Below are positions 9,999 through 45,450 of a stretch of 64,000 nt of DNA, in pieces (position 1 is the first letter of the stretch; every line of letters begins with the position of its first letter). Source of the DNA: Anadara kagoshimensis (lineage: Eukaryota; Mollusca; Bivalvia; Arcoida; Arcidae); assembly GCA_021292105.1 (NCBI GenBank), contig CM037874.1, forward strand, positions 41,291,309 to 41,355,308, given 5' to 3'. A program made the position numbers and the translations under genes. The notes under the pieces were generated by a model. It did no database searches. It was not told the DNA's origin and saw only the letters and a program-made list of their open reading frames with translations.

Positions 9999-10181
9999 TT
10001 GCCATGACGATAAACATTCCTGGGCTGGTTGTATTGTTTGTGTTCTATGCAGCAATATTTGTAGTTGGAGTTTTCATCTCATACAGGAAAAAACGGACCC
10101 AAACTGGAAAAAGTTCTTTAGAATCATCAGTTGTGGCAGGGAGAGATATATCTGGTGTGGTTGGCATCTTCACTATGACAG
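9999..10181 (+). CDS. Choline transporter-like, coding exon 1 (residues 1-59)
   Basis: Acceptor TTTTTCAG at 9991-9998, five leader bases, then ATG at 10004. It encodes the N-terminus, the first membrane helix (residues about 6-26), a basic RKKR loop, and [15 protein letters not shown], which matches the GGRDIG--VGGFTMTA start of CHT1. The donor is G|GTTAGT. The next codon is split 1/2. Confidence 0.9.
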
Positions 10182-13100
10182 GTTAGTTTAGTTTATAGTC
10201 TGTTCCAATCCCAAAGCATTCAATATCCACCACAAAACAACACATGCCATTTACCCAGTCAGTGATTTTGTTTGCCTAAAATTACATGTACTACCAAATA
10301 AAGGTATTTTTCCCCTGGGGGAACATTACTAAATTTTCCCAATTTGATCACTAAAATTCCCAAAACAACAGTGATATACTAGATATTGTCACAATATAAC
10401 ATCTTTGCAATGATGATCTTAAGCTATTGCAAGCATGACTGTCATTATGCCATTTACTGTGTTTCAGAACTTCACAATTTCCCAATTTAAAAGGCAGAAG
10501 GTAGTTTTTAAAAAATGTAACAAAATCACTGCCAGTCAGTTCAGGTTTCAGTGATGGTATAGAAACCAGAAGACCAGGGGAATTCATTACAGACAAACTT
10601 CTAAGTTCTCACACTAGAGTATCTTCTAAGTGGGATTTGAACATTTTCAGTAGGAGGCTGTAGTATCAAACTACATTACTTGCAAGGTATTAATCCCCTG
10701 CCTTTCAAAGAAAAGAGGATATTAAAGTTGAGTTTCTGTCCGTCAATCCTTTCTTCTGTCATCCAGTCTGTAAGTCCAAAATTCTTGTCTGAGCAAATTC
10801 TCCAAAACTATGAAGCACTATTTCATGAAACTAGTTGCAAAGCATCAACATTGATAGAAGATGTACATATCGGTAATGTGAATTGGTTTGTACATTTTCT
10901 TGTGAGTTATTGCCCTTTGAACATAAGTGCAAATCACAAAAAAGAACCTGCTGGCATGGGATCCTAATTCACTAAATTTACTTGTTCATAAAACACTACT
11001 TTTGAATATTTTTTATCAGAGACTGTTTGTCAGTTTATTCTTCATATTGTAGGTCATGTCAGCATAATATATTTCAGTCTTTTAATTGCTATTTCAGCCA
11101 CAACAGTGGGAGGAGGTTATATTAATGGAACAGCAGAATCCATAGCAACAGCAGGTCTTGTCTGGACACTGGCACCTTTTGGGATTTTTATTGGCCTAAT
11201 ACTAGGTATGTATTTCAGGATCAATTTATATGAAGCATCATAAATATTAATTAGTTTAGTTTTTGTTGTGATTTTTTACCTCAATGACTGAGTTCCAAGG
11301 GTGACAGACCTTGGCCAAGTTGTCCAAATGGAATATTAACTAATCACGAAGCCTTTCACTGCCTAGGTTTGAATCCCACTTGGGACAGATCCTAGTGTGA
11401 GAAAAGTTGTCAGTTTGATTGCCAAAGGTGAGTGGTTTTCTCTGGACATTCTGGGTTTCTCCACAATTCCTGTATTGACTGCCACAATATAAGAGAAAGA
11501 AATTTGATGAGGTCATAAGACTCCATTACACCACTCTACTTTCCTAGTCTGTTGTTACATGTCACAATTATACACATATTGGATACTAGTAATAGAAAAA
11601 GTATAGTTAAAGGATGTAAATAGAAAATGCACTGAGCATTTTGAAATGTTTATCCGTTAAGTCTTGTTTTAGCTACATAATTGGTAATTATACTCCCGCT
11701 TAAAAAGTGGGGGTATATAGTGATAGGAGTGTCCGTCGGTGTGTCTGTCCGTCCTTCCATTACACCTTAGGATACCTATCTCTTATCCGCAACTCCTCCT
11801 AAACCCTTCAATGGATTTTCATGAAACTTTCACATAATCTTTGTGATATAATGTAGATGTGCACCTCCTATTTAAAAATTTGATCCGATGGATTTTTGGG
11901 AGTGGGGGGTATTTTTTGTGAGCTTGTGGCTCACAGTTTTTCTAGTTGTATTTATTTTCAGGAGGGGGTAGGTGGGGGTTCATATAGAAATTAGCATCTT
12001 TGCTGACAGTTTTAGTTTATACAGGAGTCGTTGTGCCGTGTGGGTATTAGTCTCCTTTAGAGACAACTCTAGTCATTACAGTCAACTCTCTTCACAATGG
12101 CACCCTTTATAATGGCATATTCAGTTACCGTCAAAAAGTTGTTGGGAACAAATTGATCACAGTGTTATTAAAACACTTTATAACAGCATATTCGGCTACC
12201 GGCCCCTTGTGCATATTAGTTTCCTTTAGTAACAACTCTTGTTATTATATTTCAGGTGGTTTGATATTTGCGAGGAAGATGAGAGACCAGAGATATCTAA
12301 CAATGCTTGATCCGCTACAGCAAGTATATGGCAGTGTTGTCATGGTATTTATATATCTGGCTACACTTTGTGGGGATTTGTTTTGGACTGCATCAATCTT
12401 GTCCGCCTTGGGTAAGTTTAGAAAATTACAGAAAGCACAGCTTTTTTTGTGCTGCCATTAAAGGAAAAATTTCTATATACAGTAAGACCTTGCTTCCTCG
12501 GTAACATGATCAATGGCCATAGTATTTTGACGTTCCAAAATTCATTTGTTTTGTGGTTGTCATGTTTTTATTAATCAGTTTCCCTTGATTTATCAACAAA
12601 CCCGTTTATAATGCCAAAATTTGACTGAACAAATTGTGGCAATGAATTAAGGTTTTACTGTTCATGTAAATTATGTCTTAATATATGTTGTTTTAAAATT
12701 TGACTGCCATGAGAAAATATTACTGCCATGATATATATATAACAATCTGTAAAGTGGTGAGTTGACAAAGTTAGGTATAAATTTCAAATAAAATTTACTC
12801 CAGGCTTAGTTATAAAAATAACAATTTAAAATCTAGTCTCACTCAATGCAACTGTCAATACAATTTTCCATGCTTGAATCTCTATTTTTTTTACTTCCTT
12901 CAGAAGTGACCTTAAAAATCAATTTTCATTATCATTGTAGATGTGGCAGTTAAAGAACTGTCTCTGACCTGAGCACACTGCAAAGGTCAAGATTTCTGCC
13001 ACTCCACCAGTAACTGGTCAGGTTTCAATATAAGTGAAATATTCTTGACTGGGATATAAAACCCCATTCAATCAGTTCTATTTCGAGGTCAAATATTTTC

Positions 13101-16100
13101 TTGATTCAAATACATGTGTAAAAATCCTAAAAAAAGCACATTAAATTAATAATTTTAATTTTTAGGAACAAGCTTAAGAGTAATAGTAAATCTAGACCTC
13201 AAGGTTGCTATAGTAACATCATCAGCAGTAACTATATTCTACACAATGATTGGTCAGATGATTGCAGTGGCATACACTGACATACTACAGTTGGCTTTTA
13301 TGACAGGAGGCTTGGTATGTACAAAATATGTCTTAGTTGTGAACTTCATTCAAAAATGTCACTTGAATTAAAAATCAAATTATTTATTATATTTACATGA
13401 TTATAAGGACTGGAGTAATGTTGGTGTTTAATGCCACGGTCAAGATACTTTCACTCACATGGAGTCAGTCATTTTGAGGATAGTTGAGGAAACCAGAGTA
13501 CCCAGTGAAAACTACCAACCTTCTTTAAGCACATTTACAAACTTTTTCACAGTGAGAGTTTTATTTGCATCTAAGCAGTGAGAGTCACTTTGATTCGTAA
13601 GTACACACCTTAGGCCACTCGGACATGTATGATAATCAACATTCATCACAGGTCTGTTCTTTTGTTCATAAGTTTTAAATTCTGATTGTTTAACACATTT
13701 TTATGTAAAAGTAACATTGTTATTGGTTATTAGGGCGAAATAGTACTAGAAAGTTCTTGAATTTTAAAGTAAAGTACTTGAAACATTATTCTGGTAATTT
13801 CCAATGAAAATGCTTTCTAAAATGTTTCTAACAAATGTTAAAGGGTATTGATTACCCAATACACTGTTGAACATGATTTCTTCTATTTTTCTGCAGGTTT
13901 TGTGTGTGCCATTTGTGTTGACCAATGACAAGATAGCTAACATAGGAACTACAACAGATGTTTGGATTGGACAGTTTGATAAACAGGCACTCAGCCAATG
14001 GTTAGATCTCTTCATTGCCATGGTAATGATATAAGAGTCTGTTTCTTCTGCTAAACTAAAATAATGTCATAATAAAAGACAGGCAGACAATTATATTACT
14101 CTTGTTTTGTGAAGCATGCTGTCAGTGCTTATTAAAAATTTTATGTTGGTAAAACCATATTAGATTACAGGGCTTTACCTGAAAATGAGAAATCAAAGAT
14201 AACAAATAAAGAACCAACAAACTTCCTATCTCTCAAACTCAAATTGTCAAATTTGATTTTCAGAATCTTGCAACTTCGCCAATAGCTATGACTTGATATA
14301 AATGAGATATTCTTGACAGGGACATAAAAATCCATTCAATCAATTGAACCTGAAATCTTTTGGATCATTATCATTGTCATTAACATCTCAATCTTTGTTT
14401 TCCAGACATTTGGTACCATTCCATGGCAGTCATATTTTCAGAGAGTGTTGTCTGTTAGGAGTGGGCGGGAGGCACAATTACTGTCTGTAGTTGGAGGATG
14501 TAGTGCCCTGGTATTGGTTATACCATCTATACTTATAGGGGCTGCAGGTGTCAGTGCTGGTAAGTACTATTTAGAAATGCTGGTATACAGTCAAACCTGC
14601 CTTAATGGTCACCTCTATATAAGGGTCACCTGCTTATAAAGGCCAGTGGAATTGGACACCTCTATATAAGGCTCACCTGCTTATAAAGGCCAGTAGAATT
14701 GTATCCCGATCGTTCTTTATTCATATTATTTGAACCTGTATATAAAGGCCACCTGCCCATAAAGGTCACTCTTACTGGTTCCCTTGGGTGGCCTTTATAG
14801 ACAGGTTTGACTGTACTTGTATAGGTTATATCCCCTTATTTTAAAGGGTTTGGTACAGTCCAACATATACTGCATGTAATTACAGGCTACAAACATACAC
14901 ATTTTACATGGGAAAAGTATTTTAAAAATTGGACCTCAATTGGTCAAATTTTTATACCCCTGTAAACAAGGTATTTTATAGAAATCACCTTGTCCAGATG
15001 TCCATCCTAATATTGTTTCCACGCCATAACTTTACATCTAAAGATTGATTTTGATCAGATTTGGAACAATGTAAACCAACGTCTTATTCCAAATTTAGAT
15101 GTGTAGGTCAAAGGTCAAGGTCACATGTTAAAATCTTAGTTTGCAATATTTCATCAAGCAACCTATAAATAACCTATGTATACTAATAATATAGAAATAA
15201 TGTTCATGTACTTATTTTTAATCATAAAAATAAATAACGTCATAAAATAAATTATCCATATAACCAGACACCATCATGGGATGTGGTTGAGTTGAGTAAT
15301 GGTGTTTAACGTCCCAGTCAAGATTATTTAACTTATTTCGAAACATAACCATCTATAGACAAAGATGCAGAATTTTTCCTGTGCATTGCACTGATGGCAT
15401 TATTATACAGTAGGGTTCTTTATCGTGCCACATCTACCACGACTTTCATTTCAGAATGCTGAGTGCTTGGCAAAAGAACAGTCACTACCTACTTTCAAGT
15501 CTTAGGTCAGACCCGGTTCGGGATAGAGCAAAAGTGTTCTTTATAACCAAATGTTGATTTATTTATATTACAGATTGGAGTAACACAAGTATTGGAATGT
15601 CACCCGTAGATAAAAATGAAGGCAGTTCTATATTACCATATGTTTTACAAGAGTTTACACCACCTGTTGTCTCAGTCATTGGTAAGTTTTATATACAAAG
15701 AAACAATCTTCAGTGTCTATCAGGGGTCTTACTGTTAAATAATCCACACTGCAGTTGAAAGACTCTGTCTTATCATGTTATGCAGCCTTCAAACTATATA
15801 CAGTAAAACCTTGATTGATGACACCATTTGTAAAATTGTTTTGTGTTATAAAGAGGTTTAATGGTATATAAACAGAGGTTTATAATAGAAAACGGAGAAT
15901 CATTGAGTTTTTAGCCTTTAAAACAGTTGGTTATTCAATGATTGTAAAATTTTAACATAACTTAAAAATTGTCAATGGTGACAAGGAGAAACAAGTCATA
16001 AAGTTATAAATTTGTTGTTTTTGAGGTGTTCAGTAGCTGAGTGAGAAAAATAGTTCTAGTTCTGAAGTTGTAAAATAGTGTCTGGACCATATCTCATAAT

Positions 16101-18612
16101 TGCTTTGAACAACTGTAATAAAACTTCACATGAATAATCTTCATGGTCCAAAGGTGTGTCACCATGAACCAAGGTCAAATTGAAAAGTCAAGGTCATGGG
16201 AAAACATTAAACCCTTGTAGATGTTGGGGTGGGGATTATTTAGCTCTCAAGAGAGTTTTAGCTTTACATTAAAATAGAAGTTATTATTCTACTGTATTGA
16301 TATTGTTCTGTTTGGATAATTTCTACTGTATATATGTATATTACAGGTGTAGGAGCTATTTGTGCAGCAGTGATGTCATCCATGGATAGTTCTAATGTTT
16401 TATGTATATAAATTTACAGGTTTAGGAGCTATTTGTGCAGCAGTGATGTCATCCATGGATAGTTCTAATGTTTTATGTATATATGTATATTACAGGTTTA
16501 GGAGCTATTTGTGCAGCAGTGATGTCGTCCATGGATAGTTTTAATGTTTTATGTATATATTTATATTACAGGTTTAGGAGCTATTTGTGCAGCAGTGATG
16601 TCATCCATGGATAGTTCTAATGTTTTATGTATATATGTATATTACAGGTTTAGGAGCTATTTGTGCAGCAGTGATGTCATCCATGGATAGTTCTAATGTT
16701 TTATGTATATATGTATATTACAGGTTTAGGCGCTATTTGTGCAGCAGTGATGTCGTCCATGGATAGTTTTAATGTTTTATGTATATATTTATATTACAGG
16801 TTTAGGAGCTATTTGTGCAGCAGTGATGTCATCCATGGATAGTTCTAATGTTTTATGTATATATGTATATTACAGGTTTAGGAGCTATTTGTGCAGCAGT
16901 GATGTCATCCATGGATAGTTCTAATGTTTTATGTATATATGTATATTACAGGTTTAGGAGCTATTTGTGCAGCAGTGATGTCGTCCATGGATAGTTCTAT
17001 ACTGGGATCAAGTTCTATGTTCACAAACAATATATATAAACAGTTAATTAGACCTCAGGTAAGTCACAGTCTGCTAATTTATGTTGAGTTGTCACTTAAT
17101 TAGACCTCAGGTAAGTCACAGTCTGCTGATTTATGTTGAGTTGTCACTTAATTAGACCTCAGGTAAGTCACAGTCTGCTGATTTATGTTGAGTTGTCACT
17201 TAATTAGACCTCAGGTAAGTCACAGTCTGCTGATTTATGTTGAGTTGTCACTTAATTAGACCTCAGGTAAGTCACAGTCTGCTGATTTATGTTGAGTTGT
17301 CAGTTAATTAGACCTCAGGTGAGTCAGTCTGCTGATTTGTGTTGATTTGCCAACATAAGGATTATTTTGTTGTTGTAGTGGGCTTGACATGAAAAGTGGT
17401 TGATTAGTTCAATTAATTGAGCATCCTACTAGTATTGGGGAGGTCCCAGGTTCAAATTAAGTGTTTTTTCCTTCCTTGGGGCTGGGTAGCTGAATGGGTT
17501 AAAATTGGTTTGTACACTGCAAGAGACAGATCCTAGTGTCATAAAGTTTGTCAGTTTCACTTGCCAAAGGTCTCTTGTTTCTCTAGGCACTCAGATTTCC
17601 TCCATTATACCTGAACTGACACTCTCAATATGAATGACAGATTCTTCACTGGGTGAGCTGAGTGGCACTGTGATCAGTTAGCATATGCTTTATATGATTC
17701 AGCTGCCAAGGTACTTTATATTCAGTTCTGGGTGTACAACATTGAGTGAAGTTATTTAATGTTCATCACAAATAAGGACAAGAACGTAAGAAAACAAAGA
17801 TTTGAGAAAATTTTAACTGTTTGAAACATGTATTAAAAATATAAAGGTATCGTAATAATGTTACCTCAAATACAACTAGATTTAAATGATTATTTTATTG
17901 TTGGGTTTAAATCACTTTGAACTTAGAACAACAGCACATTTTATCTCATGTAATTTTTGAATTTATGTTTTCACAGGCTAGTGACCGGGAGTTGTTATGG
18001 ATACAAAGAGTTGCTGTTCTTTGTGTTGGCGTCATGGCGACTGTAATATCTATTTTTGTTCCGGTTATATACGGGATATTCATTCTGGCAGCAGATATAG
18101 TCTTTGTTATTGTACTTCCTCAGTTGTTTTGTTCCGTATTTCTAAAATGGACGAACTCGTATGGCGCAGCGTTAGGATATTTGGTAGGAGTTATTTTAAG
18201 GATCGGTGCTGGTGAACCATACCTCAATTTGGAACCATTAATACATTTTCCGTATTACGATGTTGACACAGGACAAAATTTTCCGTTTAGAACATTTGCG
18301 ATGTTGACTTCTGTTTGTTGTATTGTTGTGTTTTCAATATTTACAAATTGGATATTTTCATATCGTCTGTTTTTTAATACGTATAACTTGTCACAAGAGA
18401 TGAATGTTATGACTGACAATGAAAATAGTCCTCATATTAACTCGAGGATACGGACGATTTCTGATAATAGCATTGAGGAATCTTTTAATTATATTTTACC
18501 AGAAAATCGTCATGCAAAATTCAGGAACTGTTCTGAAAATGTGAACAACATTGATTTGTCCACCGATGATGTTTTAGTGTCACAATCTAAAGATTTTTTG
18601 TTACCAAGTTGA
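10004..18612 (+). CDS. SLC5A7-like: High-affinity choline transporter-like (SLC5 family), 9 coding exons
   Basis: Coding exons are 10004-10181, 11098-11205, 12256-12411, 13166-13314, 13897-14022, 14406-14559, 15574-15681, 16952-17058 and 17977-18612; all have AG/GT borders and compatible phases and give 573 residues plus TGA (human CHT1 is about 580). The protein follows CHT1 along its whole length: FTMT followed by [10 protein letters not shown] (residues 64-73), [49 protein letters not shown] (335-350), and [21 protein letters not shown] near the last membrane helices. Family members are 13-helix Na+-coupled symporters in the plasma membrane that import choline for acetylcholine synthesis. 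The start ATG lies 6 nt after an acceptor (TTTTTCAG), so a 5' leader exon must exist upstream. Because a residue or two differ from CHT1 at the first conserved loop, it may be a divergent paralogue with another substrate. Confidence 0.9.
10185..11097 (+). other. Transporter intron 1 with a dispersed repeat
   Basis: Holds 10690-10985: ATCCCCTGCCTTTCAAAGAA to AACCTGCTGGCATGGGATCC. The same element lies inverted at 29325-29585 and 40375-40676. Confidence 0.7.
11098..11205 (+). CDS. Choline transporter-like, coding exon 2 (residues 60-95)
   Basis: Flanked by GCTATTTCAG and GTATGT. It encodes [15 protein letters not shown], the SLC5 signature around the second helix, then a hydrophobic helix ending GLILG. 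CHT1 has ATWVGGG here; the W is T in this protein, and the following loop is about two residues shorter than in human CHT1 (comparison from memory). Confidence 0.9.
11206..12255 (+). other. Transporter intron 2 with SINE-like and other repeats
   Basis: 11285-11500 is a tRNA-SINE (family 4) body with CTAGGTTTGAATCCCACTTG and a GGGTTTCTCCACAATTCC end. 11693-11945 is a dispersed repeat that starts TATACTCCCGC and ends GTGAGCTTGTGGCTCACAG; a relative is at 51806-52095. Confidence 0.6.
12256..12411 (+). CDS. Choline transporter-like, coding exon 3 (residues 96-147)
   Basis: Flanked by TTATATTTCAG and GTAAGT. Encodes [25 protein letters not shown], then a membrane helix with [14 protein letters not shown], matching CHT1 GEMFWAAAIFSALG. 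Confidence 0.9.
12478..12661. mobile_element. MITE family F copy 1 (in transporter intron 3)
   Basis: TACAGTAAGACCTTGCTTCC at the left and AAGGTTTTACTGTTC at the right, with AATGCCAAAATTTGACTGAA inside, as in 33154-33340. Confidence 0.8.
12950..13080 (+). mobile_element. SINE family 1 tail fragment
   Basis: Contains AAGATTTCTGCCACTCCACC and GAAATATTCTTGACTGGGAT, the 3' part of SINE family 1. Confidence 0.6.
13166..13314 (+). CDS. Choline transporter-like, coding exon 4 (residues 148-197)
   Basis: Flanked by AATTTTTAG and GTATGT. Encodes the segment [20 protein letters not shown], then a helix leading into [16 protein letters not shown], the counterpart of SVAYTDVVQLFCIFVGL in CHT1. Confidence 0.9.
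13440..13630 (-). mobile_element. SINE family 4 copy in transporter intron 4
   Basis: Contains GAGGAAACCAGAGTACCCAG and a degenerate head; related copies at 33385-33560, 34505-34620 and 34690-34870 share this stretch. Confidence 0.5.
13897..14022 (+). CDS. Choline transporter-like, coding exon 5 (residues 198-239)
   Basis: Flanked by TTTCTGCAG and GTAATG. Encodes [17 protein letters not shown], then W-GQFD and QWLDLFIAM, parallel to the CHT1 stretch between helices 6 and 7 that ends in WLDSFLLLML. An unrelated open frame runs antisense through it and is not a gene. Confidence 0.85.
14406..14559 (+). CDS. Choline transporter-like, coding exon 6 (residues 240-290)
   Basis: Flanked by TGTTTTCCAG and GTAAGT. 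Encodes [19 protein letters not shown], matching CHT1 LGGIPWQAYFQRVLSSSS, then a helix [19 protein letters not shown]. Confidence 0.9.
14586..14815. mobile_element. MITE family A copy 1 (transporter intron 6)
   Basis: Ends TACAGTCAAACCTGCCTTAA and GACAGGTTTGACTGTA are inverted repeats. The inside repeats short TATAAAGGCCA / TATAAGG units. Other copies: 18851, 27141, 35377, 39581. Confidence 0.88.
14940..15180. repeat. Dispersed repeat fragment with AGGTCAAAGGTCAAGGTCA
   Basis: Begins TATACCCCTGTAAACAAGG and holds a run of AGGTCA-like hexamers near 15105-15122. Looks like an end of a common bivalve-type element. Confidence 0.45.
15285..15527 (-). mobile_element. SINE family 1, 5'-truncated
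   Basis: In reverse: TAATGGTGTTTAACGTCCCA tail, CTATAGACAAAGATGCAG body, CTTTCAAGTCTTAGGTCAGA near the head; the tRNA part is missing. Confidence 0.75.
15574..15681 (+). CDS. Choline transporter-like, coding exon 7 (residues 291-326)
   Basis: Flanked by TTATATTACAG and GTAAGT. Begins DWSNTS, as CHT1 has DWNQTA, with a possible N-glycosylation site NTS, and ends [17 protein letters not shown]. Confidence 0.85.
15682..16346 (+). other. Transporter intron 7
   Basis: AT-rich. A lone TACAGTAAAACCTTGATTG (MITE F end) is at about 15800. A degenerate GGTCAAATTG/AAGGTCATGG stretch is at 16168-16200. Confidence 0.5.
16347..16951 (+). repeat. Eight truncated tandem copies of acceptor plus 5' exon 8 (76-bp unit)
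   Basis: Copies begin at 16347, 16420, 16496, 16572, 16648, 16724, 16800 and 16876; the ninth, at 16952, continues into the real exon. Each unit is 48 nt of exon 8 (to ATGGATAGTTCTA) followed by about 28 nt of intron-like sequence ending TATATTACAG. Every unit therefore carries a plausible 3' splice site but none carries a donor. Copies 3, 6 and 9 share GTCGTCC while the others have GTCATCC, so the array looks like a repeated trimer. 76 is not a multiple of three: reading on from any upstream acceptor meets TAA in copy 1, or TAG in the next copy. Confidence 0.92.
16952..17058 (+). CDS. Choline transporter-like, coding exon 8 (residues 327-362), the only full-length copy
   Basis: Encodes [16 protein letters not shown] then [13 protein letters not shown], the conserved helix with the SS-DSS motif of the Na+-coupled SLC5 core, ending RPQ. 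It joins exon 7 (phase 1) and exon 9 (phase 0) in frame only with the acceptor at 16951/16952 and the donor at 17058/17059. Eight truncated copies of its 5' part lie upstream and five copies of its 3' end plus donor downstream; see separate entries. Confidence 0.9.
17044..17352 (+). repeat. Six tandem copies of exon 8 3' end plus donor (52-bp unit)
   Basis: Units start at 17044, 17096, 17148, 17200, 17252 and 17304. Each holds the last 15 nt of exon 8 (TTAATTAGACCTCAG) followed by GTAAGTCACAGTCTGCT; the sixth has GTGAGT. Thus six consensus donors sit in a row. Only the first keeps the reading frame; use of any later one reads into an in-frame TAG within the first added unit. Confidence 0.92.
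17353..17976 (+). other. Transporter intron 8, distal part with SINE-like sequence
   Basis: 17400-17720 carries GGTCCCAGGTTCAAATTAAG (B box), AGACAGATCCTAGTGTCATA and TTTGTCAGTTTCACTTGCC, a SINE family 4 relative of 11285-11500. Confidence 0.5.
17977..18612 (+). CDS. Choline transporter-like, last coding exon 9 (residues 363-573)
   Basis: Acceptor TTTTCACAG at 17968-17976; the frame is open further upstream to an ATG at 17917, but that part is intron. Encodes [15 protein letters not shown] (CHT1: ASDKEIVWVMRITVF), three or four membrane helices, [29 protein letters not shown], and [11 protein letters not shown], then a cytoplasmic tail of about 85 residues rich in N, S, D and E. The tail ends FLLPS; I see no strict acidic dileucine motif. 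Confidence 0.92.
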   Translation, partial: ASDRELLWIQRVAVLCVGVMATVISIFVPVIYGIFILAADIVFVIVLPQLFCSVFLKWTNSYGAALGYLVGVILRIGAGEPYLNLEPLIHFPYYDVDTGQNFPFRTFAMLTSVCCIVVFSIFTNWIFSYRLFFNTYNLSQEMNVMTDNENSPHINSRIRTISDNSIEESFNYILPENRHAKFRNCSENVNNIDLSTDDVLVSQSKDFLLPS

Positions 18613-19128: not shown

Positions 19129-21077
19129 TAGCTCACCTGGCCAAAGGCCATGTGAGCTTATGGCATGGCGAGGCGTGCGTCCGTGCGTGCGTCAGTAAAC
19201 TTTAATCTTCTCCTCTGAAACTACTGGGCCAACTGAAACCAAATTTGCCATGGAAGGTCCTTGACAGAGTCTAACTATAGTTTGTTCAAATCATGGCGAT
19301 TGAATATCCAAGATGGCCGCTGTTACTAAAAATAGACAAAACCTTAAAAAATCTTCTTCTCTTGAACCACTCATTGGAGGCAAAAACTAATGTGATATTT
19401 GGATTCTACATAGTCTTAACCTTTAAGTTTGTTCATTTCATGAAATTTGGTTTAAAAATAGGTTACGCGTTTTTGCGTTTAATTTTGCAAAAATCGTAAA
19501 ATGTTTTTAAATTGTTATAACTTGACTATATAACCAGATAATGACATGAGGTTTTCAGTTTTGACATATTCTTGTAATTACCTTCAAAATGGTGTCAAGG
19601 TCAGTCATGAAGGTCATGACCTAATTTTTTACCTTTCTAATAATACTTATTATCTCGAAAACTATAAACTTTTTATATAGGCATGTATATTACACTATTG
19701 TTGGTATTGATGTAACGATTATTTTGATATATAGATTAAGGTCATTGGTTCAAAGGTCAAGGTCACAGATACGAAAGAATACTGAAATGGTTTATTATCT
19801 TGAAAACTATGAACTTTTTGTATAGACATGTATATTAGAATGTTGTAGGTATTGATACAACAATCATTTTGATGTATAGAAAAAGGTCATGTGTCTAAAG
19901 GTCAAGGTCACAGAAGCAAAACAATACTAAGATCGTTAATTATCTTGAAAACTATAAACTTTTTGTATAGGCATGTATATTGGAATGTTGTTAGTATTGA
20001 TGTAACGATCATTTTGATATATAGATTAAGGTCATTGGTTCAAAGGTCAAGGTCACAGATGCGAAAGAATACTGAAATGGTTCATTATCTTGAAAACTAT
20101 TAACTTTTTGTATAAGCATGTATATTAGAATGTTGTAGGTATTGATACAACGATCATTTTGATGTATAGGAAAAGGTCATGGGTCCAAAGGTCAAGGTCA
20201 CAGTAGCAAAACAATACCAAGATCGTTAATTATCTTGAAAACTATAAACTTTTTGTATAGGCATGTATATTGGAATGTTGTTGGTTTTGATGTAACGATC
20301 ATTTTGATATATAACTTTAGGTCATTGGTTTAAAGGTCAAGGTCACAGATTGGAAAGAAAACTGATTTGGTTCATTATCTTGAAAACTATGAACTTTTTG
20401 CATAAGCATGTATATTAGAATGTTGTAGGTATTTATACAACGATTATTTTGATGTATAGGAAAAGGTCATTAGTCCAAAGGTCAAGGTCATGGTTGCAAA
20501 ACAATACCAAAATGGTTAATTATCTTGAAAACTAAAAACTTTTTGTATAGGCATGTTGTTGGTATTGGTGTAACGATCATTCTGATATATAGAATAAGGT
20601 CATTGGTTCAAAGGTCAAGGTCACAGATGCGAAAGAATACTGAAATAGTTCATTATCTTGAAAACTATAAACTTTTTGTATAGGCATGTATATTAGAATG
20701 TTGTAGGTATTGATACAACGATCATTTTGATGTATAGAAAAAGGTCATGGGTCCAAAGGTCAACATCACAGTAGCAAATCAATAGGTTAAGGTCACGGTT
20801 GCAAAACAATACCAAAAATGGTTCATTATCTCGAAAACTATGAACTTTTTGTATAGGCATGTATATTAGAATTTTGTTGGTATTGATACAATGATCATTT
20901 TAATATATAGATTATGGTCATTGGTTCAAAGGTCAAGGTCACAGATGCGAGTAGCAAGTTTCATAAATATCTTAATATCCACATCAGAGTTATTGCTCCT
21001 TAAATGTAGTATTTATTGTGTTTTTGTGCTGTTTACGGCCCAGGTGAGCGGTACAGGCCCTATTGGGCCTCTTGTTT
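19129..21077 (-). mobile_element. Large non-autonomous element with satellite core, copy 1
   Basis: In the - orientation it starts ACAAGAGGCCCAATAGGGCC and ends in a hairpin (TGGCCTTTGGCCA) followed by GGTGAGCTAA. The end next to that hairpin holds a GCACGCACG run and AAGATGGCCGC-type sequence. The core is a tandem array (see 19640-20950). The hairpin-CTAA end resembles a Helitron 3' end; there is no clear TC start, so the class is open. No protein is encoded. Confidence 0.8.
19640..20950. repeat. ~145-bp satellite array, dimeric, with AGGTCAAGGTCA motifs
   Basis: GGTCACAG recurs at 19761, 19906, 20051, 20196 and 20341, exactly 145 bp apart, then less regularly. Two monomer types alternate: one with GATTAAGGTCATTGGTTC and GCGAAAGAATACTG, the other with AAAAGGTCATGGGTCC and GCAAAACAATACC. 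About nine monomers. Confidence 0.9.
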
Positions 21078-29300: not shown

Positions 29301-32300
29301 GTAAAATGGCCTATAAAATTTAACAAGCAAATTCATTGAATTAGGATCCCCTGCCAACAGGTTCTTTTTTTTGTGATTTGAACTTATGTTCAAAGGGCAA
29401 TAACTCTGAGAAAAATCAGCAAAACAACTTGAGTTAACGATATGTGGATCTCCTATTAATGTTACAGCTTTGCACCAACTTTTGTGAAATAGTGATTCAT
29501 AGTTTTGGAGAATTAGTGCAGACAAGAATTTCAGATGGAAGAATGGACAGAAACTAAAATTTGATATCCCTCTCTTTCTTCGAAAGGCGAGGGATAAAAA
29601 AAATAACATACATACCTGTGACAGGATACCATTCTGCTCCGTTAGTAATACCGTCTGGGAATGTATCTCCACAGTGTGAGCCGGAATGCATGGTGGGATG
29701 TGTAAAAGAATATACTTTGGCTAAGTGTTGGAAAACGTCGTCATCCGGACATTTGATATATCTAGCTTCCTGTATAATGGAAGCTATAAAAGAAACATGA
29801 TATAACATTTATAACCACCAGGCACCGGTTTCACAATCATTTCTTAAGATTTTTCTTACCTTAAATCTGGCAAATTAAAAACCTTTATAATTTTGTCAAT
29901 TGTTAAGATTTTAGGGAATTAAAGGTGTCATTTTAAAGATTATATCAAGCTTATGACATCTGCATTTAGTTTTGACAAAAATATTTATTCGTAGTTCCAA
30001 AAAAAGCTTGCCAAAATTTGCTAAATTTAAGTTAAGGAAAATCTTAGTTAAGGAATGATTGTGAAACTGGGTCCAGGGTGCACTAACTGAGTTGCAATTT
30101 CCTATTCTTAATGATGTACCATTCAAATACGAAATGTTAATTCAGTATCTTTTATAAATCCTTTTATACTATAAACATATTTATTTTTCGCAGGGTACTA
30201 ATTTTCGCTTATTTCGCGGTCATTAGTTTTAATACCAAGTAAAAATTATATTATGCTTATTGTGTTGTAGTGCATATTTCAAAAAGGCGAAAATTTAACT
30301 ACGGGGATATGTCTAAATTTCCTTTACAGTGAAAATAAATACACACAAAATTAAATATGTTTACAGTATTTTATAAAAAGGGTCGGGCAGGTGTGTCCCT
30401 AAGTCAAAGGCTCATAAGTTTATTTCAGTGAATTAAGAAATGACATTCTGATCATAGTATTTCAAGGGGTAATGAAAGATAGTGTGGCGTGTGCCAAATT
30501 CGATGAAGGGCAAAGCCCTTCATTTTGAATTTGGTATGCGCCACACTATCTTTCATTACCCCTTGAAAAACCATGAGCAGAAATGTCATTTCTTATATTT
30601 ACAATTCTTTCTTTTAATAAATATTTTGTACCTTGGCGCTATTTTTCCGTATCTGCTAGTGTGATATAGGGTTTTTAGCCATGCAAGATCGGGACATGAC
30701 GTAATATTGCGGGAAAGTTGATACACATCAAGGGTCATGACCCCTATTGTCTTTCAACGGGAATTGAAATACAATTGCTTCTCTATGTTTCATCGAAGAG
30801 AGATACAGTCATATTGTAAATATACTGGAATGAAACTCAAAACTTGATATGTAACTCATGGTGGTAGACTCGCATACCAAATATGAGTTCAATATCTAAA
30901 GGCATTTGAAAAAAAAAATCAAGAAAACTGATTCCAGCCTGCATGCATGCTCACTTCCTGCACAACAAAATTAAATTGCCGACTTCAACTCTGTTACTAC
31001 TCAGCTAAAAATAACTTTTGTCTAGACAATCTTGACTTTGATACAGCATCAGCCACTTGGTGTTGGTGTTTAAACCAAGGCATCTCGCCACTGCAGGTTT
31101 TCCCACGATATATTTGTTCCAGGACAAGTCTTGCCAAATCAATTGAGATTTTATCTGGCACTATAGGCAAACAACATTGACCTGTCTGCTTGACCTTTAA
31201 TTGAAATATTTATTGTGGGTGAGTGCATTTTTATATAGGGGACACACATGTTTATTTCATCTACAGAAGGAGATACACTAAAACAAACTCTGTTCATGTA
31301 GGAACTGCAAATTATAAGACTATCCATGTATTGGATGGATTCTAATATAAGAATATTCTTAACAAAAGGTCAAATGGACAGGTCAAAATTGTTTGCCTAT
31401 GCACATAGTAACTAATTTTGTTGCACCAGAAATTACATATATTGAACAAATTACAAGAATGTTTTAATGTTTTATAGTGCAAATGCTTGTACTCATACAA
31501 AATAAGACAATTTTTGCATTGTGAACAATTTACTTCATAATAAAAATCTTTTTATGAAGTCATGTCATAAAGCACCAAAGCAGCTCTGATTTAACATGTA
31601 GCCCATTTGGTATTGGAAGTGTTTCAGGTCTTTTGCCTTCTTAGTTAATGTTATCACCATGATAGAAATAACAGACATTGTCTGTACAGTTTGGCATGAT
31701 TTTTTTTTTTTTTTTTGAACATACATAGTATATCATACAAGAATGACGGAATGGACAATGTTCTGGACTTCACAAACAGGGAGATCCAGACAAGGAGATT
31801 CTCTTATTGGAGGGCTGAGTAAAGTATTTTATTGTGACCATTCTTTGTGAAACTGGACAGCATTTTCTCAAGCATGTGAGTTTTGAGATATTATAGAGAA
31901 GCTTTTTTTCATGCATTCCTTGAGACAAAATTCCCATTTTATGACATCAAATATGGACTGACATGGCCAAGCAGTACTGTAACTGGCTTTCGAAGTCAAG
32001 GGCAGTGGGTTCAAACCTCACTCAGGACTTGGAAATTTTCTGAGGTGATTTTCATCTCCTGTCCATACTAGAGCAGTAAAAACCTCATTACCAAAATAGT
32101 CTTTTGGGTGAGACTAAAAAACGAGGTCCACTATCTCAGTGTCCGCTTAATACACCTCTGTAGAGTTCGAAAAAGATTAGGTCACCTGTGGCCGCTACAG
32201 AGGATGTTTACAAAAAGTGGATGAAACAGACCAAACAGGAAGATAAGACAAGAAGAAATAATTACCGTTTACGTAGTTATCATATGGATAATTGGCCACT

Positions 32301-35300
32301 AGTGCTCCTCCGTGCATGTTAGCAGAAAGTACAAAGGGGATTTTATCCAGCCAATCCAATATGGCCTGGGTCTCCATTTGGATAGGGGCTGTGTTGTTTT
32401 CGAAAAAGTCTGGGAAATTACGATTTAAATCATACCCATTGCTATTTGGTCTGGAAATGAAAGAAAGTAAAATACATTTAAAAATATGAATTGAGAAAAG
32501 TCATTTCTGTTTTATTAAGAGTTATCTCCATTTCAATTTAAACCAGGGGCCAGTTGTTTGATGCTTGATTAGTTTAATCTATTAACGTATCATCAGCCAC
32601 GCCCACTATGTTCCGACAAAGGGTGGACATGCTTGAATTACATGCAAAAAGAATGAAAACTCGGCCTGAATTGTGTGGTTTAATGACGTCACTGACACTA
32701 GAACGTCATTAGTTGCCATAACGCTGCTATGGTACCATGATGGCCGCCAGTGTTGAAACATTGTGGGTGTGGCCGGCAGTACGTCAATTGATTACGGTAG
32801 TCAATTTAAATTTTCGAAAATTTCAAATATATTGTGAATATAATGATGATCGAAATTATCAAAAGTAAATAAAATACCATCAAAATAACACACATTGTTA
32901 CAAAACTATTACCGGTAATTTAATAATAATATGTTGATTTTTATTGATGTATTTAATTTATGTTAATCACTGATGTAACTAATCAAGCTTTGAAAAACTG
33001 GGTCCAGGTATCACTGAGTGTGTTAATTATTAAATTAAATTAAATTATGAAACATTAAATTAAAATTGACTAAATGATCATTATCAAATGTCAAGTCAAG
33101 TACTAAATCGATCATTCAAACCAGAAGGATTCATTATATGTAGTTGATTGAAATACAGCAAAACCTCGCTATAATGCCCCTCGATAACTTTGCCACTTGC
33201 TTATTGCCACACTATTTTGAAGTCCCAAAATCCATTTATTTGTTTTTCTTTATCCACCTCCCCCAATTTATTGCCAAACCTCTTTATAACGCCAAAATTT
33301 GACTGAACAAATTGTGGCGATAAATCAAGGTTTTACTGTAATGGAGTGACAGTGTTATGCCTCAATCATGATTGTTCCACTTAAATTAAGGTGGTCAGTT
33401 CATGGATGGTTGAGGAAACCAGCATGCCCATGAGAAAACACTGAACTTCAGCATGTGAACTGACGAACTTACTTTCACACTGTGATATGTCCTAAATTTG
33501 AACCTAGGCGGTGAGAGGCGCAATTATCTGTAAGCACAGGTTTTAGACCACTAAGCCACAGAAGAGTTGATTTGAGTAATGGTGTTTAATGTCCCAGTCA
33601 AGAATATTTCACTTACAGTATATCAAGACATCGCCAGCTTTGGGCAAAGGTGCAGAAATTTTTCTCTCTCAAAGTAACACAAATTCAAAACATGTGCAAA
33701 AATCTACACAGGAAGTTGGCCTCATCACCAACATGACCTATGATTTAACCCTACACTGCCCTACTTATACCTACACCAACTGTACCCAATTTTGGTCAAA
33801 TCCAAAGACAAAATACTATAATTCAATAAATTCATCACTGTAGTGTAAGCAAATACCTTTTATGTATCAAAATAGGGTCAATTTTCAAAGAAAACATGTA
33901 TTCTCTAGTGTACTCTTTGGGTCCCTATCCCGGAAGTAGACAGAAACCCTGGTGTGAGACCATTGCGCTGATGGCATTATACAGCAGGGCTCTTTATTGT
34001 CCAGACTACTGTGACATTGTTATTTTTAGTTCCAATCCAAAAGAACTGTGACTTTCAATTTGTAATGCCGAGTGCTTGGCAAAAGAACAGTCACATACCA
34101 CTTTCAAGTCTTGGGTCAGACCCAGTGGAGATTCGAATCCATGACCTCCCACTTATGGAGCCAGTACTCGACCAACTGAGCTACCACAGTGGTCAGCCAC
34201 CAAAGATCTTATTGTTCAATACTGGATATATTTATAAACATACTCACCTGCCAGTTACGCCAGTACAATTAGTCTCAAAGGAAGCCTCAAAACCGTCAGG
34301 ATTCATTGTCGGCATGATGTGTACTAATGTGGAGTTTAGGTATGACGTAATTGTCTGATTTGTACCATAACTTGTCACAAACAACTCTATAAGATGTAGT
34401 AAAAGTTCACGTCCAACGACCTGTTATATAAAAACTAAATTTTGCAAAGATTGACCTGTCCAATTTTAACAAAAATCAAAATGTAAATATAAATCTTTTA
34501 CTTTTATCAAGGTGGTCAGTTCTTGGATGGTGGAGAAAACCAGAGTACCCAGAGAAAACCACTGAGCTTTAGCAAGTGAGCGTCAACATGAAGGAGATAT
34601 GAAGGGAGGGTTATGGTTTCCAAGTTCATATGATATGAACTGAATTTTAGGAGTAGTGAATTGGAGTTATGCACTTTCCTTTAAAATGAGGCAGTCAGTT
34701 ATGAAACAGTGGGGAAACCAGAGTACCCAGAGAAAACCACCGAACTTTGACAAGTGAACTGACTAACTTTATCACACTAGGATTTGTCCAGAGTGGGATT
34801 CTAACATCTATAGGCTGTGAGAGGTGTTGTGATCTGTAAGGGATTGCTTTAAATAACTCAACCACCAAGACTCTTATCTTATCATGATACACATCATATC
34901 ATATCAAACAATTAATACTGAGAGAGGCCCTGGTGGCCTAATGGATAAGTTGTCAGTCTTCAAATCTAAGGTCTCTCACCACTATGAGTTTGAGTTTGCT
35001 CAGACTCGCACTTCACATGCATACACAAAATTATTCATAGATTAATTGATAGAGATTAATAAAAATAGTTCTCGTCGTGAATAGCTGAAAAATTGCTGAT
35101 GCGACGTTAAGCAACATTAAACCAACCAACCAACAATTAATATTGAGAAAGTGGGTTCATTTGTACTTTACTTTTAAGCCTTACCTCACTGTGACTTAGA
35201 GTGGGAGGTCTTTTGTTGAAGCCCCAGTAATGCTTCCACGTCTGACGCTTGGTAATTAGGGAGTCAGATTATCACAAGATGACTGGTTCATATAATGTAA

Positions 35301-38300
35301 CTAGGCAAGCTGTATGCTTGTCTGTGACATATTGATTCTGTGAGCTGGTATTAAAATCACCATGAGTGTGTGTTAGTACAGTCCAACCTGTCTTAAAGGA
35401 CACCTCTATATAAGGTCAACTTGCTTATAAAGGCCAGTAGTATTATATCCCAATTGTTCTTTATTTATATTATTTGAACCTGTATATAAAGGCCACTTGC
35501 CCATAAAGGCCACTTTTACTGGTTACCTTGGGTGGCCTTTATAGACAGGTTTGACCGTACCATACATGGCAGACCATAAATCACAATGTGTGGAATAGCT
35601 GAAAGATTGCTGATGCAACATAAATCAACATAACCAGCAACCAAAAATTGTAACATACCTCATTTCCATGCATATTGCCGACATATTTCACTTGTGGTCG
35701 TAAGGTCACATGATCTCGTGGCGACTTACCAATGGCTAATACCCACAATTTACGACCTGAAGTAGAAGAGACATCTTGTATCAAAGCAGTTAGGGGAATT
35801 TATTCAGTTAAAGAAAAGTTCTGAAGTTCAGTTGTTTTAAATCTTTCACAATTGTACATGGATAGTCGCTGAAACAAGAGGCCCAATAGGGCCTGTACCG
35901 CTCACCTGGGCCGTTAACAGCACAAAAACACAATAAATACTACATTTAAGGAGCAATAACTCTGATGTGGATATTTAGATATTTATGAAACTTGCTACTC
36001 ACATCTGTGACCTTGACCTTCGAACCAATGACCATAATCTATATATCAAAATGATGATTGCATCAATACCAACAATATTCTAATATACATGCCTATACAA
36101 AAAATTCATAGTTTTCGAGATAATGAATCTTTTTGGTATTGTTTTGCAACCGTGACCTTGACCTTTGGACCCATGACCTTTTTCTATACATCAAAATGAT
36201 CGTTGTATTAATACCTACAATATTTTAATGTAAATGCCTATATAAAAAGTTTATAGTTTTCGAGATAATTAACGATTTTGGTATTGTTTTGCTAATGTGA
36301 CCTTGACCTTTGGACCCATGACCTTTTTCTATACATCAAAATGATCGTTGTATCAATACCTACAACATTCTAATATACATGCCTATACAAAAAGTTAATA
36401 GTTTTCAAGATAATGAACCATTTCAGTATTCTTTTGCATCTGTGACCTTGACCTTTAAACCAATGACCTAAATCTATATATCAAAACGATTGTTACATCA
36501 AAACCAAGAACTTTCCAATATACATATTTATACAAAAAGTTTATAGTTTTCAAGATAATTAACAATTTTGGTATTGTTTTGCTACTGTGACCTTGACCTT
36601 TGGACCCATGACCTTTTCCTATACATCAAAATGATTGTTGTATCAATATCTACAATATTCTAATATACATGCCTATACAAAAAGTTAATAGTTTTCAAGA
36701 TAATGAACCATTTCAGTATTCTTTTGCATCTGTGACCTTGACCTTTGAAATAATGACCTTAATCTATATATCAAAATGATCGTTACATCAATACAACAAA
36801 ATCTCCAATACATGCCTATACAAAAAGTTTATAGTTTTCAAGATAATTAACCTTTTTGGTATTGATTTGCTACTGTGACCTTGACTTTGGACCCATGACC
36901 TTTTCCTATACATCAAAATGATCGTTGTATCAATACCTACAACATTCTAATATATATGCCTATACAAAAAGCTTATAGTTTTCAAGATAATGAACCATTT
37001 CAGTATTCTTTCGCATCTGTGACCTTGACCTTTAAACCAATGACATAAATCTATATATCAAAATGATCGTTACATCAATACCAACAAAATTCCAATATAC
37101 ATGCCTATACAAAAAGTTTATAGTTTTCAAGATAATTAATGATTTTGGTATTGTTTTGCTACTGTGACCTTGACCTTTGGACCCATGACCTTTTTCTATA
37201 CATCAAAATGATCGTTGTATCAATATCTTCAAAATTCTAATATACATGCTTATACAAAAAGTTCATAGTTTACAAGATAATGAACCATTTCAGTATTCTT
37301 ACGCATCTTTGACCTTGACCTTTGAACCAATGACCTTAATCTATATATTAAAATGATCGTTTCATCAAAACCAACAAAATTCCAATATACATGCCTACAC
37401 AAAAAGTTTATAGTTTTCAAGATAATTAACGATTTTGGTATTGTTTTGCTACTGTGACCTTGACCTTTGGACCCATGACCTTTTTCTATACATCAAAATG
37501 ATCGTTGTATCTATACCTACAACATTCTAATATACATGCCTATACAAAAAGTTAATAGTTTTCAAGATAATGAACCATGTCAGTATTCTTTTGCATCTGT
37601 GACCTTGACCTTTGAAATAATGACCTTAATCTATATATCAAAATGATCGTTACATCAATACCAACAAAATTCCAATATACATGCCTATACAAAAAGTTTA
37701 TAGTTTTCAAGATAATTAACCTTTTTGGTATTGATTTGCTACTGTGACCTTGACCTTTGGACCCATGACCTTTTCCTATACATCAAAATGATCGTTGTGT
37801 CAATACCTACAACATTCTAATATATATGCCTATACAAAAAGTTAATAGTTTTCAAGATAATGAACCATTTCAGTTTTCTTTCGCATCTGTGACCTTGACC
37901 TTTGCACCAATGACCTTAATCTATATATCAAAATAATCATTACATCAATACCAACAATATTCTAATATACATGCCTATATAAAAAGTTTATAGTTTTCGA
38001 GATAATAAATAATATTAGAAAGGTAAAAAATTAGGTCATGACCTTCATAATTGACCTTGACACCATTTTGAAGGTAATTACAAGAATATGTCAAAACTGA
38101 AAACCCCATGTCATTATCTGGTCATATAGTCAAGTTATAACAATTTAAAAATATTTTACGATTTTTGCAAATTTGAACGCAAAAACGCGTAACCTATTTT
38201 TAAACCAAATTTCATGAAATGAACAAACTTAAAGGTTAAGACTATGTAGAATCCAAATATCACATCAGTTTTTGCCTCCAATGAGTGGTTCAAGAGAAGA

Positions 38301-40903: not shown

Positions 40904-40917
40904 GTTGGGTGTCAAAT
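40711..40917 (-). CDS. CPM-like coding exon 1: signal peptide and N-terminus (residues 1-64)
   Basis: Acceptor CTTTGCAG borders 40917; ATG is at 40903-40901, so at least one untranslated exon lies upstream. Encodes the signal peptide (core [13 protein letters not shown]), then [15 protein letters not shown] and YSIGQSVEG, typical of the start of N/E-type carboxypeptidases. Donor G|GTAGGT. Confidence 0.9.
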
Positions 40918-41099
40918 CTGCAAAGAGAAATTTTGAAATTTTAATTTTAAGTATCTTAAATGAATATAAATGTTTCTGATTACACACAGAAACTTTTTAG
41001 CTTTCTAAATATTTGTATACATCAATTCTGATGACAACCCTCTAGGCTAGATAATGATAATAATGATATTAATAATTTTTATTACTTATACTTAATTTA

Positions 41100-42706: not shown

Positions 42707-43830
42707 TTGTGGAAAATACAAAATGTTTTATTCAACAAGTTTAATAAATTCAGTAGTTAACATAAACACGAATGTAAGATTGAGTTTGTTGTATAATTTG
42801 AGAAAATTTGAATTTTTTTTGTATCTGTAAAGTGTTTTTTTGGCTAAAACATGACATCATAATATGTTACAACAATCGTATGATGCCATTAACCAAGGAA
42901 ATCACACGTGATATCACATGTGTGTAAATATCATTTCTATTGCATCACTGTTTGGATTTTGGGAGAAATTATATAATAAGTGTTATATATTATGCACGAG
43001 TAATGCACTTTACATTTTTGACCTTTTTTCAAAATCTGGGTACCAAACACTATGATATTTCTCATGAGACGTTACTATTCTTGAGTTTGAGCTGTAAAAC
43101 AAAAACCACACCACCCAGATTTCCAAAAGTGGTCTGCAATGTCATAAAATAGAAATAAAGTTTCAATTCAACTGTCTATCAAATGATATCTATATAGCAC
43201 GCTGACAAGCCCTGTAAATTATCCTAAGCCATAAATCTGAACATTTTACGACAAAATAATTTTACCAATGTATCATATATCATTAATGTAGGTATCAATA
43301 AATTTTTAAAATTTTTAAGTATTATCTAAATTTACATGGAGTACCAAAATTTGTCTAAAAATAGAGGGGTGTGTATATTTCAATCAAAGTTCATTGAAAA
43401 GGTAAGGCAAAAGAATTCAACCTTGGGGTACACCCTTGTTCCATGTGATAATACTCAACATTTTAGCATAAACTATCATTTCAATTGGATATGGAGTGAA
43501 GTGAATAAACAGTGTTTTACACAAGACAAGTTTCTTTCACTCATATCAAGATAGTCAATTTTAAGATGGTGGAGGAAACAGGAGTACCAAGAGAAAAATC
43601 ACCATCATTGGGCAAGAAAACTGAAAAATTCCTTGAACTAAAATCTACCAAAGTGGGGTTAGAATCTGCAAAGTTAGAGGTGCTCAAATATGTCTTTTGT
43701 TCTCAAAATATGAAAGATGTTCAAATGTTAAAAATAGCATCAGGGGTAAACATGCTCCAACCTCTTAATCAAAAGATAAAATCTAGATGTTAATGACTGA
43801 GAGAGACCAGGCTAATTAAAAATCAAAAAT
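42707..43830. other. Intergenic, no recognised gene
   Basis: AT-rich; a SINE 4-like piece (AGAAACAGGAGTACCAAGAG) is near 43570. Open frames here of 70-93 codons lack any recognisable motif. Confidence 0.45.
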
Positions 43831-45283
43831 ACAGTAAAACCTTATTACAATGTCCCTCAATAACTTTGCCACCTTGCATATTGCCACAAAATTTTTACAG
43901 TAAAACCTTATTACAATGTCCCTCAATAACTTTACCACCTTGCATATTGCCACACAATTTTTACAGTAAAACCTTACTACAATGTCCCTCAATAACTTTG
44001 CCACCTTGCATATTGCCACACAATTTTTACAGTAAAACCTTACTACAATGTCCCTCAATAACTTTGCCACCTTGCATATTGCCACACAATTTTTACAGTA
44101 AAACCTTACTACAATGTCCCTCAATAACTTTGCCACCTTGCATATTGCCACACAATTTTTACAGTAAAACCTTACTACAATGTCCCTCAATAACTTTGCC
44201 ACCTTGCATATTGCCACACAATTTTTACAGTAAAACCTTACTACAATGTCCCTCAATAACTTTGCCACCTTGCATATTGCCACACAATTTTTACAGTAAA
44301 ACCTTACTACAATGTCCCTCAATAACTTTGCCACCTTGCATATTGCCACAAAATTTTTACAGTAAAACCTTATTACAATGTCCCTCAATAACTTTGCCAC
44401 CTTGCATATTGCCACACAATTTTTACAGTAAAACCTTACTACAATGTCCCTCAATAACTTTGCCACCTTGCACATTGCCACAAAATTTTTACAGTAAAAC
44501 CTTACTACAATGTCCCTCAATAACTTTGCCACCTTGCATATTGCCACACAATGTTTACAGTAAAACCTTACTACAATGTCCCTCAATAACTTTGCCACCT
44601 TGCATATTGCCACCCAATGTTTACAGTAAAACCTTACTACAATGTCCCTCAATAACTTTGCCACCTTGCATATTGCCACACAATTTTTACAGTAAAACCT
44701 TACTACAATGTCCCTCAATAACTTTGCCACCTTGCACATTGCCACAAAATTTTTACAGTAAAACCTTACTACAATGTCCCTCAATAACTTTGCCACCTTG
44801 CATATTGCCACACAATGTTTACAGTAAAACCTTACTACAATGTCCCTCAATAACTTTGCCACCTTGCATATTGCCACACAATGTTTACAGTAAAACCTTA
44901 CTACAATGTCCCTCAATAACTTTGCCACCTTGCATATTGCCACACAATTTTTACAGTAAAACCTTACTACAATGTCCCTCAATAACTTTGCCACCTTGCA
45001 CATTGCCACAAAATTTTTACAGTAAAACCTTACTACAATGTCCCTCAATAACTTTGCCACCTTGCATATTGCCACACAATGTTTACAGTAAAACCTTACT
45101 ACAATGTCCCTCAATAACTTTGCCACCTTGCATATTGCCACACAATGTTTACAGTAAAACCTTACTACAATGTCCCTCAATAACTTTGCCACCTTGCATA
45201 TTGCCACACAATGTTTACAGTAAAACCTTACTACAATGTCCCTCAATAACTTTGCCACCTTGCATATTGCCACACAATTTTTA
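43831..45283. repeat. 66-bp minisatellite, 22 copies
   Basis: Unit starts ACAGTAAAACCTTACTACAA, continues TGTCCCTCAATAACTTTGCC and ends TTGCCACACAATTTTT. Period is exactly 66 over the whole array. Because 66 is a multiple of three, frames stay open on both strands (491 codons -, 472 codons +). The unit equals the first 66 bp of MITE family F, whose remaining part follows the array at 45284-45360. Confidence 0.95.
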
Positions 45284-45450
45284 AAGTCCAAAAATCCTTT
45301 TCTTTTAAGATTTTCAATATAAGCCTCCCTTAATTTATAACCAAACCCCTTTTGGGGTTGTAAAGAATTTAGTTTTTATTCTAAAATTAAAATTATTAAA
45401 ATAAGAATGTTTTGGGGTTGTTATTTGACTTCTTTAGGATTATTAGGCTT

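Follow-up and report, generated by a model that had tools for sequence, protein, structure and literature searches.

Several genes carry tandem repeats that contain splice sites. According to the published passages cited here, a minisatellite in human IFI6 (6-16; Turri, Cuin and Porter 1995, as cited in PMC4526556 and PMC2915984) gives multiple splice donors, and its downstream repeat units act as donors to produce three mRNA species (PMC4526556). UBC and VCX3A contain tandem arrays of dual-specific AG/GT sites (the slash marks the splice junction) that serve as donor or acceptor (Duan et al. 2024, PMC10809524). Tandem duplication of an AGGT-containing segment is an established model of intron gain (the Rogers model; potato RdRp, PMC4974935; Drosophila, PMC2891723), nested introns known as [D] stwintrons in the fungus Lipomyces have been proposed to stem from donor duplication (PMC7138796), introns from tandem arrays have been described in human (Zhuo et al. 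2007, cited in PMC2812944), and minisatellites modify the gene structure of human paralogues (PMC2812944). Here we describe coding exon 8 of a CHT1/SLC5A7-like gene in the bivalve Anadara kagoshimensis, which lies in a stretch of 64,000 nucleotides (nt) of contig CM037874.1 (assembly GCA_021292105.1, positions 41,291,309 to 41,355,308; hereafter the window). The 3' splice site (acceptor) that opens this exon is present in nine copies in an array of 76-base-pair (bp) units, and the 5' splice site (donor) that closes it is present in six copies in an array of 52-bp units. Single-sided arrays of splice sites are known in other genes, and the new aspect is that two independent arrays cover both edges of one exon; no such case was found in the open-licence literature, which is not proof of absence. 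An initial annotation of the stretch had stated that no standard feature type exists for such a structure, which is too strong given the reported IFI6 minisatellite and the AG/GT arrays of UBC and VCX3A. The arrays most likely represent recent and nearly neutral expansions, with the mRNA being made from the innermost pair of sites. We assign a probability of about 0.6 to the reading that two independent expansions took place, that the innermost pair is mainly used and that the outer sites act largely as decoys.

At the downstream edge of exon 8, Tandem Repeats Finder (TRF) reported a period of 52, 5.9 copies and 97% match at positions 17044-17349. Together with a listing of the units, this confirmed the six tandem donor units of the initial annotation, and the last exon bases of the donors (17058, 17110, 17162, 17214, 17266 and 17318) are exactly those it had given. 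Each unit combines 15 nt from the end of exon 8 with the 6-nt 5' splice site and a further 31 intron nucleotides. Such a tandem unit, containing a splice site and joined to a coding exon, shows the repeat structure of splice-site minisatellites of the IFI6 type. The annotation had assigned GTAAGT to all six donors; this is correct for the first five, which read CAG/GTAAGT, whereas the sixth reads CAG/GTGAGT. The sequence CAGGTAAGT is present at the first five donors and nowhere else on the two strands of the window. Any two of units 1-5 differ by 0-2 bases; units 2-4 are identical, and units 1 and 5 each deviate from them by one base. The divergent unit 6 combines GTGAGT with a 2-base deletion and a decaying 3' end; its match to the unit ends at about 17345, and the array end previously placed at 17352 lies within a few bases of the one listed in Table 1.

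At the upstream edge, exon 8 could open at nine positions (16347, 16420, 16496, 16572, 16648, 16724, 16800, 16876 and 16952), with a spacing of 73 nt between the first two acceptors and of 76 nt between the remainder. The whole exon adjoins only the ninth acceptor, and 44 of its 107 nucleotides (17000-17043) lie outside both arrays. AG/GT is found in every unit, in nine of nine on the acceptor side and in six of six on the donor side. The 52- and 76-bp units share no detectable similarity, and no further full copy of either was found in the window. This agrees with the earlier view that the two units are independent, and it excludes that both arrays represent one family or copies of a repeat dispersed in the window.

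Table 1. Coordinates of exon 8, its splice-site arrays and the gene that contains them, in positions of the window.
Feature	Position	Strand	Basis
76-bp array, nine copies of the exon-8 3' splice site	16327..16999	+	TRF, unit listing
52-bp array, six units, exon-8 5' splice site	17044..17355	+	TRF, unit listing, mismatch counts
Exon 8, 107 nt	16952..17058	+	sole version keeping the frame into exon 9; homologous proteins
Donor 1, CAG/GTAAGT	17058..17059	+	sole productive donor under single-step splicing
TGGATAATTTCTA, near-copy of exon-8 TGGATAGTTCTA	16313..16325 (intron 7)	+	read from sequence
CHT1/SLC5A7-like coding region	10004..18612	+	gene model; PDB and Pfam matches
Coding exons 1-3 of the CHT1/SLC5A7-like gene	10004-10181, 11098-11205, 12256-12411	+	
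Coding exons 4-6 of the CHT1/SLC5A7-like gene	13166-13314, 13897-14022, 14406-14559	+	
Coding exons 7-9 of the CHT1/SLC5A7-like gene	15574-15681, 16952-17058, 17977-18612	+	

The gene model describes coding exons, a non-coding first exon being outside its scope. It has an intact frame of 573 amino acids (aa) across nine coding exons and GT...AG at all eight modelled introns. The encoded protein belongs to the sodium:solute symporters (Pfam SSF match, E 4.2e-35), and its closest solved structure is PDB chain 8j74_A, High affinity choline transporter 1 (E 9e-136, query residues 2-490), which we take to be the human protein. The named bivalve proteins among the top 20 matches are CHT1-like and 60-72% identical. 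Judged by the similarity of its transporter core to characterised CHT1, the 573-aa product is a relative of the high-affinity choline transporter CHT1/SLC5A7. The best match, P0001, shares 89% identity across 470 residues. Its contig is 1709 bases long, and since 470 codons fill 1410 of these bases, the contig probably represents a spliced transcript. All 36 of 36 exon-8 residues are identical in P0001, there is no insert at either exon-8 junction, and exons 7, 8 and 9 are joined as modelled.

CHT1 supplies choline for acetylcholine synthesis, and strong mis-splicing of its transcript should therefore be costly. Another explanation is that the gene is a decaying paralogue that is not needed, so that the arrays are tolerated. 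Several bivalves have more than one CHT1-like protein among the matches listed, and a second intact CHT1 may exist elsewhere in the genome. Against this stand the 573-aa frame that is intact over nine exons, the GT-AG introns and the strong similarity to other transporters, which make this explanation highly improbable. A pseudogene with a broken frame is ruled out by the same intact frame.

We further translated each of the 54 acceptor/donor pairs together with exons 1-7 and 9. Only the pair 16952/17058 gives the 573-aa protein, and the other 53 pairs all lead to a stop inside the extended exon. The last residue before the stop is 347 for acceptor 1, 365 for acceptors 2-8, and 376 for acceptor 9 combined with a downstream donor; in the latter case 14 residues are added before the in-frame stop, the stop itself having been anticipated for the downstream donors by the initial annotation. 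A second productive pair under single-step splicing is thereby excluded. The accompanying proposal that one of 54 pairs is productive holds for single-step splicing, but it is incomplete if GT...AG segments can be removed as extra introns. Occasional use of an outer site would yield a truncated mRNA, probably targeted by nonsense-mediated decay (NMD); alternatively, it may be corrected by further splicing of the extra GT...AG segments.

The strength of the sites was scored with a small matrix built from the other sites of the gene, i.e., from seven donors and seven acceptors, which are very few. With this matrix, donors 1-5 score 13.0 alike and donor 6 scores 7.8, whereas among the acceptors 16952 and five others score 12.4 bits, 16572 and 16800 score 17.8 and 16420 scores 4.4. 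Two of these observations weigh against our preferred interpretation. The productive acceptor is not the strongest, seven of the eight outer acceptors scoring equal or higher by the seven-site matrix, and donors 2-5 are identical to donor 1. Should the outer sites compete equally, transcripts would be mostly non-productive, which would make the arrays harmful or regulatory rather than neutral. Site strength alone does not select the productive pair: donors 2-5 equal donor 1, and the acceptor scores favour other copies. The innermost pair defines an exon of 107 nt, compared with 159-972 nt for all others, and as this is the shortest exon, the spliceosome may mainly use it by exon definition. 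The outer sites are accordingly predicted to be mostly decoys.

The same scores could be taken to favour a regulatory rheostat, in which the fraction of productive CHT1 mRNA would depend, through premature stops and NMD, on how many decoy donors and acceptors are present, so that array length tunes choline uptake. Such a role is compatible with the stop inside the extended exon in 53 of 54 pairs and with the scores, since seven of the eight outer acceptors, and likewise four of the five outer donors, equal or exceed the inner sites. Near-identical units, however, suggest youth rather than maintenance, and conservation of the arrays is not seen in homologous proteins. We collected the best 120 of 2138 homologues and 57 more, 177 in total, all of which span the exon 7/8 junction and 175 of which span the exon 8/9 junction, and we counted indels of at least four residues exactly at an exon-8 edge in these database proteins. 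Such indels occur in 2 of 177 proteins at the 7/8 junction (P0010 and P0022) and in 1 of 175 at the 8/9 junction (P0148). Taken together, a rheostat is quite unlikely.

These three proteins differ in the kind of change. P0010, an SLC5A7 protein of Mytilus coruscus, has a 20-residue repeat at residues 293-332, its 20 extra residues repeating the start of exon 8; possibly, the same acceptor was independently duplicated in this second bivalve. A search centred on this repeat (116 proteins) revealed no second protein that has it, with 115 bits for P0010 and 78 for the next. P0022 from Mya arenaria has lost eight residues at the start of exon 8. In an alignment of 60 of the best 120 homologues, a long insert at the exon-8 start is present only in P0010 and an internal gap there only in P0022. 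It should be noted that the A. kagoshimensis exon has a GCAGCAG motif (within 16952-16975) that forms a possible in-frame acceptor 24 nt downstream, and that P0022 is without exactly eight residues at this place. P0148 from the snail Batillaria attramentaria contains 26 extra residues at the exon 8/9 boundary; the insert is not a repeat of the exon and could stem from an extended exon, an additional exon or an annotation error. All three indels may be annotation errors.

Since both exon-8 junctions read AG/GT, the repeated segments themselves run from GT to AG, and this opens another explanation, namely that the arrays neutralise themselves. Outer sites that are used first would be corrected by recursive or nested removal of segments, giving the same mRNA while the copy number drifts; if the segments are spliced out as additional introns, normal mRNA could result from every one of the 54 starting pairs. 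Each of the five 52-bp segments opens with GTAAGT, closes with CCTCAG and has a YNYURAY branch motif about 34 nt before its end; the eight 73/76-bp segments open with GTTTAG (GTGTAG in one), close with TTACAG and all have such a motif 25-28 nt before the end. Among the seven internal coding exons, AG/GT at both edges is seen in exon 8 alone. On the other hand, given that AG/GT is seen at three of eight junctions on each side, its presence at both edges is expected by chance in about 14% of cases. A branch motif is common by chance in a stretch of this kind (an estimate rather than a computed value), and we dismissed the branch-point-like motif of each segment as strong evidence. In addition, 52 nt is very short for an intron. 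The sites are also weak in the opposite role. As an acceptor, CCTCAG scores 5.1 bits, against at least 11.5 for the other modelled acceptors, and as donors CAG/GTTTAG and CAG/GTGTAG score 1.65 and -1.2 bits, against at least 7.2 for the other modelled donors, the comparison sites being flattered in both cases since they built the matrix.

These weak scores do not settle the matter. In the published account of UBC and VCX3A, AG/GT sites of tandem repeats are used both ways and tend to be weaker than single-purpose sites (PMC10809524), and nested removal after donor duplication is described for the fungal stwintrons (PMC7138796). We nevertheless regard self-neutralising arrays as unlikely. The same modest weight applies to the broader proposal that AG/GT junctions hide expansions at the mRNA level, so that both edges became minisatellites and splice sites multiply freely, which we put forward only tentatively. 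If it were true, AG/GT-bounded exons would be predisposed to splice-site minisatellites genome-wide, and the multiplied sites would provide a natural series for studying spliceosome choice among identical competing donors and acceptors.

Returning to near-neutral expansion with use of the innermost pair, the arrays can be explained by simple steps. Two independent minisatellites would have arisen at the two edges of coding exon 8 in this bivalve CHT1/SLC5A7 gene. In each of them, one short duplication would by chance have spanned the splice site, and unequal exchange or slippage would then have enlarged the array. Where the duplication spans an acceptor, its last copy would remain on the whole exon, and where it spans a donor, its first copy would; the exon between the innermost sites is intact because the last acceptor copy and the first donor copy stay attached to it.

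The joins between the 76-bp units are consistent with this scenario. All eight joins read ATGTTTTAT, preceded by TTCTA in six of eight and by TTTTA in two of eight, and their common sequence fits a single founding duplication. To the left of the array the intron reads TTCTACTG, and to its right the exon reads TTCTATACTG. The intron-7 sequence TGGATAATTTCTA, a near-copy of TGGATAGTTCTA in exon 8, is likely the microhomology at which the first 76-bp duplication was joined. The join and flank sequences would thus fit an origin in which a single duplication formed at a short microhomology, with a few extra bases, and the array later expanded in register. With the join, a branch-point-like TTCTAAT or TTTTAAT is also completed 25-28 nt before acceptors 2-9, whereas the first acceptor has TATTGAT 47 nt upstream instead. 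Finally, units 3-5 and 6-8 of this array form a repeated triplet, which, together with the identical 52-bp units 2-4 and the decayed last 52-bp unit, fits a recent expansion.

Several of the units are identical and beyond short-read resolution, which raises the possibility, adverse to our interpretation, that one or both arrays were inflated or collapsed in the assembly. The distinct marker variants and the decayed terminal unit fit real tandem DNA, and an assembly error might alter a copy number more easily than create two arrays that span splice sites. We consider an assembly artefact very unlikely.

As repeats, the two arrays are far beyond chance. Counted from TRF, the window holds 12 tandem arrays with a period of at least 30 and at least three copies, including both exon-8 arrays, so that such expansion is common here. 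Uniform random placement of these 12 arrays put two different arrays at both edges of one exon of this gene in 722 of 600000 trials (0.0012), in a test that was framed after the case had been seen and that ignores selection. The two-edge placement is therefore unusual locally; it is not surprising somewhere in a repeat-rich genome, where coincidence suffices.

The locus combines features of several of the described systems, as far as the available passages on them show. It resembles IFI6 in that a minisatellite at the 5' splice site of an exon supplies several donors, and differs from it in that IFI6 is affected on the donor side only, as far as seen, and has a short unit (reportedly about 12 bp), whereas in A. 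kagoshimensis the acceptor is amplified too. With UBC and VCX3A it shares AG/GT-bounded tandem units, so that unit-length segments could be removed as introns. In UBC, however, the repeats are the coding sequence itself, whereas here they cover both boundaries of an exon that is itself non-repetitive, and their lengths, 52 and 76, are not multiples of three. As in the intron-gain model, a short duplication with AG and GT makes new pairs of splice sites (in the potato case an existing intron-exon structure was copied), but the copy numbers are six and nine and both exon edges are affected. The stwintrons are similar in that duplicated donors at one junction permit one-step or stepwise removal, and dissimilar in that their donor duplications measure 4-7 nt, with no arrays in the passages concerned. 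Use of outer donors is reported for IFI6 and stwintron removal is shown by cDNA, whereas in our case outer-site use, segment removal and a new intron are possibilities suggested by the DNA. The human paralogues described in PMC2812944 likewise have minisatellites that alter exon-intron structure and activate cryptic splice sites, although expansions over both edges of one exon are not described in the passages concerned. Good precedents exist for each side, and any functional weight of the extra sites is hypothetical.

The locus represents a natural competition experiment, with five identical donors and one near-identical donor, nine similar acceptors, one short exon and a known correct product. 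It could show whether proximity or exon definition selects the innermost pair, as well as what level of non-productive RNA is tolerated. It could also show whether AG/GT tandem units are removed stepwise, which bears on the origin of introns from tandem duplication.

Other repeats and genes were recorded elsewhere in the window. The arrays at 19649-20784, 36005-38006 and 46634-47414 share, by eye, a 145-bp unit with a higher-order period of about 290 bp, the first of them being oppositely oriented, and represent a dispersed satellite. A 66-bp unit is repeated 22 times at 43830-45287; as 66 is divisible by three, both strands of this array are open, one over 491 aa and the other over 472 aa, and the array looks like a repeat rather than a gene. 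Its TACAGTAAAACCTT stretch recurs in a 117-bp array at 57692-58623. On the minus strand, two open stretches at 32198-32500 and 40700-40996 have matches to zinc carboxypeptidase (Peptidase_M14; E 4.4e-11 and 8.4e-06) that follow the order of the profile. They are probably exons of a single gene, and the 145-bp array at 36005-38006 lies in between. Finally, a tRNA-Thr (AGT) gene lies on the minus strand at 39933-40006 and is the only Rfam match in the window at the gathering score.

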